Of a stretch of DNA of 64,000 nt, positions 376 through 1,090 are shown in pieces. How positions within the stretch are numbered: the first letter of the stretch is position 1; every line of letters starts with the position of its first letter. A program made the translations under genes and the position numbers. The notes under the pieces were generated by a model that was given only the letters and a program-made list of their open reading frames with translations, was not told the origin of the DNA and did not search any database. Source of the DNA: Acetivibrio sp. MSJd-27 (GTDB taxonomy: Bacteria > Bacillota > Clostridia > UMGS1840 > HGM11507); NCBI RefSeq assembly GCF_018918095.1, contig NZ_JAHLPV010000004.1:1-64000 (forward strand). Direction: 5' to 3'.

Positions 376-600
376 GGTTTCCTCCTTTACCTTTCTGCAC
401 TGCTGTTTTCCACAGACGGCTTGTCCCTGTATTCACGCAAATAAAAACGTCAAAGCGTTAACGAACTGATTACCATTTCAGACAAACCACTGTGGTTTGA
501 GTCACCTCGAACCAGTCTAAGCTGTAATAATATAGCTACAAATCCACAGTGCTTGTCTTTATTATATCGCAGGTAGCTACTCCTGCAAATATAATCAAAA
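376..600 (-). ncRNA. Candidate IS110 left-end (bridge-type) RNA region
   Basis: This non-coding stretch lies immediately 5' of the transposase start, which is where IS110-group elements (as opposed to the IS1111 group) are known to carry the bridge RNA. Seen directly: a long imperfect inverted repeat, 480-499 against 539-558, enclosing about 39 nt. It would fold on the minus strand as a stem with the pairs AGACAA/TTGTCT and CACTGTGG/CCACAGTG. A second hairpin (561-595, GCAGG/CCTGC inside ATTATAT/ATATAAT) overlaps a TATAAT box read leftward, with TTGCAG 16 bp upstream of it. The RNA start, end and guide loops cannot be fixed without related copies, and the outer element boundary is also undetermined. 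Confidence 0.5.
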
Positions 601-617
601 ACTTTAAGAAAGGAGAT

Positions 618-654
618 ATAATTAAAACCACCCCTTTCGAGATGGTTTAATTAT
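618..654 (+). other. AT-rich hairpin between ribosome site and nuoE-like start
   Basis: ATAATTAAAACCA (618-630) pairs with TGGTTTAATTAT (643-654) with one bulged A. It sits between the only good Shine-Dalgarno match (AAAGGAG, 609-615) and the ATG at 665. Folding would bring the two closer together. It could instead mark an IS110 insertion boundary or a damaged leader. Confidence 0.5.
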
Positions 655-664
655 ACGTGATTGT

Positions 665-1090
665 ATGCAGGAAATTCAAGCAATATTTGACTATTATAAA
701 GAAAAAAACGGAAATCAGGAGGAACTCATCGCCTGTCTTAGGGAAATTCAAGCGGTTCTCGGATGTATTCCTAAAGAGTTTCAGCAAAAGATAGCTGAGT
801 TGTTTGGAGTAAAGGTAACCGTTGTACAGGCCTATATCAAGCTGTACCCAAGTTTGAAGGAGCAGGCGTCAAAACATATTATCACAGTGTGTAACGGCCC
901 TAGATGCGGAAATAAAGGGGCTCAGAGACTGCTTCGGGAACTGAAACAGCTGCCCGGTGTCCAAAAAGGAGAAATTGAAGTAAAAACGCAAATGTGTATG
1001 CATCACTGCGCCACATCTCCGAACATAAAAGTGGATGGAGTCTTGCTGGAGCATGCACGGATGGAAGAAATTCTAAAGCGTCTGCAATAA
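665..1090 (+). CDS. NuoE-like [2Fe-2S] thioredoxin-fold protein (orphan)
   Basis: This 141-residue protein matches the NuoE / 24-kDa subunit family of NAD(P)H-linked oxidoreductases and [FeFe]-hydrogenases. An N-terminal helical bundle (about 1-65) is followed by a thioredoxin-like ferredoxin domain. The four cluster ligands are visible as CNGPRC (C76, C81) and CMHHC (C111, C115), the expected Cx4C and Cx3C pairs. Family members normally pass electrons between NADH-oxidising NuoF and partner subunits. No nuoF or hydrogenase gene is next to it here, because the upstream side is IS110 DNA, so the insertion may have separated it from partners. The ATG at 665 has no close ribosome site. A clear terminator follows at 1161-1190. 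Confidence 0.8.
   Translation: MQEIQAIFDYYKEKNGNQEELIACLREIQAVLGCIPKEFQQKIAELFGVKVTVVQAYIKLYPSLKEQASKHIITVCNGPRCGNKGAQRLLRELKQLPGVQKGEIEVKTQMCMHHCATSPNIKVDGVLLEHARMEEILKRLQ

Follow-up and report, generated by a model that had tools for sequence, protein, structure and literature searches.

The window, i.e., the whole stretch of 64,000 nucleotides analysed here, is the start of contig C4 (NZ_JAHLPV010000004.1) in the 3.05-Mb genome of Acetivibrio sp. MSJd-27, which comprises 104 contigs. It begins on the minus strand with an open reading frame (ORF) for the first part of an IS110-group transposase, continues with the region upstream of this gene, and passes into the start of a host gene on the plus strand (Table 1). 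As judged from sequence comparison, positions 376-657 form the left end of an IS110-group insertion sequence that is present in multiple copies and encodes an IS621-type bridge RNA on the minus strand, and the element is situated between the Shine-Dalgarno sequence (SD) and the start codon of the host gene. A bridge RNA in this left end had been proposed in an earlier reading of the same stretch (the original prediction).

The ORF at 1-375 matches PF01548 (DEDD_Tnp_IS110, the RuvC-like N-terminal domain; E 3.7e-25). Close full-length homologues possess both PF01548 and PF02371 (Transposase_20) in a transposase of about 387 amino acids, and their sequences match those of the IS621 and ISCro4 structures; the C-terminal Transposase_20 domain is seen in these homologues, the window copy ending at the contig edge before that part. 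Complete relatives of the element are around 1.5 kb long, with a transposase of 387 amino acids.

The stretch from around 540 to 657 is repeated at eight other contig ends of the genome, and the nine copies all diverge directly after ...ATTATACG, which places the left boundary at 657/658; the bridge RNA region and the stem at 480-558 therefore lie inside the element, as the original prediction had presupposed. Concerning the right ends, a pattern derived from those of close homologues locates exactly nine of them in the genome, likewise at contig edges and with flanks that differ among the ends, so that nine left and nine right ends correspond to nine element copies. Joining the flanks on contigs C24 and C9 yields the exact empty site GAGGTGATAATG, at which one radical-SAM gene is rejoined in frame, with its Pfam domain spanning the junction; insertion therefore involved no duplication or loss beyond the shared core. 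A second insertion separates the flanks on C57 and C54, which belong to two genes; in a relative these genes are neighbours, and the intact site there has the sequence GAGGTGGAAATAATG. No nucleotide relative of the left end was found in plasmids.

In an alignment of 20 left ends (53-100% transposase identity), the helices of a target-binding and a donor-binding loop pair in 97.4% of the cells, and two-sided (compensatory) changes occur in both loops (24 cells versus 7.1 in shuffled alignments, 0 of 500 shuffles being as good). The 88 nt of the minus strand from 562 to 475 fold at -28.0 kcal/mol (shuffled mean -16.4, z -3.85, 0 of 200 as good), whereas the whole of 376-562 folds less remarkably (z -1.73). 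No Rfam family reaches its gathering score for the left-end region. The original prediction had described an imperfect stem (480-499/539-558) with a loop of 39 nt, and this stem is present as described; its inner part (539-550/489-499) is conserved with compensatory changes, whereas its outer part (around 480-485/553-558) pairs in only 75% of the cells without any two-sided change, and 480-487 pairs with 419-426 instead. Of the two loops to be expected in such an RNA, the earlier reading had thus covered the target-binding one and missed the second, donor-binding loop at 419-487. A further pairing, between the two ends of the RNA (546-552/397-403) together with 490-495/410-415, is kept as well and may represent an alternative or precursor fold.

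The stem might also be a hairpin that controls transcription or translation of the transposase gene, i.e., an attenuator or a block on read-through translation, and no guide RNA at all. The region does have a promoter-like site on one side and the transposase gene on the other, and alternative folds, including the pairing of its two ends, are possible; however, a control hairpin would predict neither two conserved guide loops nor loop bases covarying with target DNA on the one hand and donor DNA on the other, and we consider it very improbable. The promoter-like site fits 10 of 12 consensus bases, around one such site being expected by chance in the stretch. Its TATAAT, which had been noted before as a hairpin-associated box, indeed adjoins the palindrome GCAGGTAGCTACTCCTGC (569-586). 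This palindrome is kept in most close relatives and lies between two divergent TATAA boxes; it may be an operator or part of an outward promoter toward the host gene. A promoter scan of the region found no canonical outward promoter on the plus strand.

Concerning the target-binding loop, the right target guide (RTG) with the sequence GAGGUGA reads the SD. In permutation tests that take no account of kinship among the elements, the RTG agrees with the right target at 4.13 of 6 positions across 35 guide groups (2.22 in shuffles, 0 of 5000), an agreement also found within the elements with a CT core (4.02 versus 1.99) and within the CA-core clade alone (p = 0.008). The same kind of test for the left target guide (LTG) and the left target gives 4.64 of 8 versus 2.73 in CT-core elements (0 of 5000) and, in the CA-core clade, 4.08 versus 3.25 for the best of five registers and 4.37 versus 3.27 for a register-free score (0 of 5000 each). 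Single elements depart from the common guide together with their targets: L037, with a CT core amid the CA clade, has both its RTG (GGAGA) and its right donor guide (RDG; GCGAG) altered to match; in L022 and L126 the RTG is altered to GGAGAUG and the right target is CATCTCC; and in L071 and L117 the RTG reads CCCGACAG or TCGACAG, with right targets matching, which is, as far as guides and targets can be compared, a case of the right side having been naturally reprogrammed to sequences other than the SD.

In the donor-binding loop, the RDG tracks the core plus left end in three classes (CACG/CGUG, CTCG/CGAG and CTTG/CAAG). These were called by a regular expression, and the cases that it missed, which were read by eye, agree as well, with the exception of L032, where a U.G wobble occurs. 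The complementarity of loops to donor and target flanks anticipated by the original prediction is hence positive for RTG, LTG and RDG, and its interpretation of the left end as holding a bridge RNA is supported. Right and left end, when joined to each other, give TTGACT-N17-TATAAT, in sequence the usual circle-junction promoter.

The rebuilt insertion sites read in host-gene sense as an SD followed by a start codon, e.g., ttgaGG.TG.attagATG and aaaaGG.AG.gtacttATG. Each of the 25 left flanks in the close clade, nine from the copies of this genome and 16 from homologues, has an ATG 3-7 nt from the core, versus 9-18% of control sites (CA, CACC, CACCT and CACCTC) within the window; the right flanks are mostly CCT(C). 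The targets include the start codon of the NuoE-like gene next to the window copy and, as we presume from reading the translations, those of CwlD-like and XRE-type genes, the start in L027 reading like purA. Distant relatives (31-43% identity, including those from Enterococcus and viral contigs) are mostly situated at SDs too, and many of them read the SD with the LTG (in L075, guide and site share TTTTATCACCT), such that the SD remains beside the ATG. The 3' end of 16S rRNA (...GGATCACCTCCTTTCT) is the antisense of the SD, and the SD-reading RTG (502-509) should therefore match 16S genes too; no 16S-like sequence exists among the left flanks listed, and it may be the LTG that spares these genes. 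Three left flanks from one genome (L079, L175, L176) are almost identical (TTTGCATCACACCCAC) and have differing right flanks, as if a repeat had been targeted. L089 (G209) seems to contain two left-boundary motifs that overlap, as might result from insertion of one element in the end of another, and was left out of the counts as its left boundary is ambiguous.

A real bridge RNA might nevertheless be combined with a preference that arises by survivorship: the element would insert at any CACCT-like site, and insertions at gene starts would be the ones tolerated. This would fit some of the own copies, which lie inside genes at SD-like sequence, and also the spacer between CA core and ATG, the range of which (3-7 nt) indicates that the ATG need not occupy one set position. 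Survivorship does not explain, however, why the SD sequence is written into the guides of both clades (the RTG here, the LTG in several CT-core elements), nor why the agreement of LTG and left target exceeds that in shuffles, and as the source of the preference it seems unlikely, although guide programming and survivorship may act together. Taken at the level of sequence, the comparisons demonstrate the element with its boundaries, the two loops, the covariation of the guides, the SD-ATG target and the clean insertion; expression of the bridge RNA, binding by the recombinase and catalysis would be expected from analogy with the family.

The left ends of elements that cut the SD from the ATG contain, in the sense of the host gene, GAAAGGA(G) and then a hairpin extending to the junction. 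The hairpin exhibits 19 two-sided cells versus 6.3 in shuffled alignments (0 of 500), and a count by hand places the SD around 10-13 nt from the ATG when the hairpin is looped out. The presence of this cassette follows the fate of the host SD: 21 elements have it and cut the SD, 19 lack it and retain the SD, 3 have it with the SD retained, and 1 lacks it with the SD cut (Fisher p = 4e-8). In the window copy, GAAAGGAG and the junction hairpin are likely to be a replacement SD, as far as their sequence and position indicate. The block and hairpin (GAAAGGAG/CTCCTTTC) may instead serve the element: CUCCUUU in the transcript from the junction promoter would pair with the SD of the transposase (AAAGGAGG) and lower its translation, or the hairpin might be a recombinase or termination signal. 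CTCCTTT is indeed complementary to the transposase SD, which is itself conserved, and the cassette is present in some elements keeping part of the host SD. Yet SD-retaining elements also have transposase SDs and mostly lack the block, and the hairpin is placed exactly between the block and the host ATG; we regard a function for the element itself as possible, at somewhat less than an even chance.

Taken together, the following course of insertion is proposed. The donor-binding loop would pair with the junction of right end, core and left end in the circular element, and the target-binding loop with the site, its right half being the antisense of the SD (core CA plus CCTC) and its left half reaching the start codon; insertion at SD-ATG sites would thus follow from the guide bases spelling the ribosome-binding signal. 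The recombinase would then place the element between SD and ATG, with the transposase gene pointing away from the host gene and nothing duplicated except the shared core. In the clade of the window element, by which the SD is cut from the ATG, the left end would supply a new SD (GAAAGGAG) and a spacing hairpin, by which this SD would be brought to within around 10-13 nt of the host ATG, leaving the host gene translatable. Bridge RNA-guided insertion between SD and ATG is, as the best explanation of the whole, highly probable in our view; the replacement-SD step, considered alone and as read from sequence, has slightly better than an even chance.

Several observations speak against parts of this proposal. 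The agreement between the left donor guide (LDG) and the right end (AGTTAGT being common, with one mismatch in the window copy) is judged by eye only. The best of the five LTG registers in the CA-core clade gives AC as core guide, rather than CA or UA, which is odd at the core, and the register proposed there is an approximate one. In the own copies that lie within genes, a replacement SD has no obvious use. The cassette is found in L069, L070, L172 and L091 while part of the SD remains under the criterion used, and it is lacking in L168-L171, though the SD there is scored as cut. Furthermore, it changes only around three times on the transposase tree, and its association with SD fate is without significance once kinship is counted; with one supported pair, a phylogenetically independent test could not reach significance. 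The association is therefore suggestive and no proof. It seems to us evenly balanced whether the further statement holds that an IS110 clade in Bacillota (Clostridia, Enterococcus, viral contigs) is programmed for the translation-start signal and that its SD-cutting lineages gained a replacement SD plus a length-correcting hairpin around three times, making insertion translationally neutral for the host gene.

Table 1. Features at the left end of the IS110-group element and its host flank (window positions)
Feature	Position	Strand	Basis
IS110-group transposase, N-terminal 125 amino acids (ORF truncated by contig edge)	1..375	-	Pfam DEDD_Tnp_IS110
Transposase SD, AGGAGG	381..386	-	sequence; kept in homologues
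Predicted bridge RNA, approximate extent	397..558	-	alignment and covariation
Donor-binding loop; closing stem 480-487/419-426, inner stem 456-459/446-449	419..487	-	covarying helices
RDG GCGUG, pairs with core + left end CACGT	434..438	-	three covarying classes
Putative LDG AGUUCGUUA, matches right end ATAGTTAGTCA with one mismatch	459..467	-	comparison by eye with right ends
Target-binding loop; closing stem 539-550/489-499, inner stem 522-524/513-515	489..550	-	covarying helices
RTG + core guide (CGAGGUGA), the complement of the SD-antisense TCACCTCG	502..509	-	permutation test of RTG and right target; right flanks
LTG, CUAUAUUAUUA; register approximate	525..535	-	permutation tests of LTG and left target
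Promoter-like site of bridge RNA: TTTGCA (584-589), 17 nt, TATAAT (561-566); overlaps palindrome 569-586	561..589	-	consensus match only
Element-borne SD-like GAAAGGAG, host-gene sense (proposed replacement SD)	608..615	+	kept in elements cutting host SD away
Junction hairpin 618-630/643-654, between element-borne SD and host ATG	618..654	+	covariation
TATAAT at left tip, -10 of circle-junction promoter; -35 TTGACT in right end	650..655	-	right ends TTGACTTTTAATAGTTAGTCA + left tip, 17-nt spacer
Core dinucleotide: CA in transposase sense, TG in host-gene sense	658..659	.	nine copies diverge here; core occurs once in exact empty site C24 + C9
Host flank: spacer ATTGT, then target gene with ATG at 665, for a NuoE-like protein (thioredoxin-like [2Fe-2S] ferredoxin)	660..1090	+	Pfam 2Fe-2S_thioredx; ORF

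Around 1 kb past the target gene, a tRNA-Val and a tRNA-Met gene are situated on the minus strand (2149-2304). At another contig start of the genome (G000:C62:1-120, L011), the first 120 bases repeat the interior of the transposase (amino acids 86-125) and are followed in frame by an unrelated ORF; this might be an overlap of around 119 nt from the assembly graph or a genuine truncated element.

The organization of the element is most similar to that of IS621 (Durrant et al. 2024, PMC11208160; structures 8wt6-8wt9), with which it shares a recombinase composed of DEDD and Transposase_20 domains, a guide RNA in the left end with two loops, each having left and right guides (the LDG a putative one) that include the core dinucleotide, and a promoter sequence at the circle junction. 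All features testable on sequence other than the LDG are found, and by these features the predicted RNA can be added to the IS621-type bridge RNAs as a new member. There are, however, differences: IS621 targets REP elements, whereas the window element targets the SD-ATG region; the core is CT in IS621 and CA in the window clade; and the left end of the window element is long, containing an internal promoter-like site, a block resembling an SD and a hairpin at the junction. Ribosome-binding sites are unmentioned by Durrant et al. (PMC11208160). The seekRNAs of ISEc21 and IS1111-type elements (Siddiquee et al. 2024, PMC11187229) are, according to the available description, similar in that short RNA stretches match both target strands and natural reprogramming occurs, the non-coding region of the IS110 type lying upstream of the transposase; their targets are others, and no replacement-SD block was found in that description.

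Insertion at translation initiation signals is reported for IS900 of Mycobacterium avium subsp. paratuberculosis, also a member of the IS110 family (Doran et al. 1997, as cited in PMC8141618). By that description, it resembles the insertion found here between ribosome-binding site and start codon. According to the same account, the rationale, given at a time when no guide RNA was known, was expression of the element's own antisense hed gene, whereas for the window element a rescue of the host gene is proposed. Concerning the hairpin, a structure between SD and AUG shortens the effective spacing in T4 genes 38 (22 to 5 nt) and 25 (27 to 11 nt) and improves initiation (PMC3014915), so that, by analogy, a hairpin bridging SD and AUG can work; those are phage genes, whereas here a mobile element would place an SD and a hairpin that it carries itself in front of a host gene. 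Within the open-access literature, a scope that leaves most subscription papers and all preprints outside, no paper was found in which IS110, bridge RNA and Shine-Dalgarno occur together, nor any report of a bridge-RNA basis for SD targeting or of a replacement-SD cassette. With IS900, SD targeting has a precedent, and it is the target choice together with the cassette that constitutes the interesting part.

The bridge-RNA mechanism is hereby tied to a decades-old oddity, the presence of IS900 at translation starts. The natural guides described here are programmed for a universal sequence class instead of one locus, and their target is present in nearly every genome; natural retargeting between elements is evident in that some lineages use the RTG to read the SD and others use the LTG. 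If the cassette works as proposed, it would give a mobile element a built-in means of separating a gene from its ribosome-binding site while leaving the gene active and, if this is true, it might possibly be useful for gene insertion by bridge recombinases.
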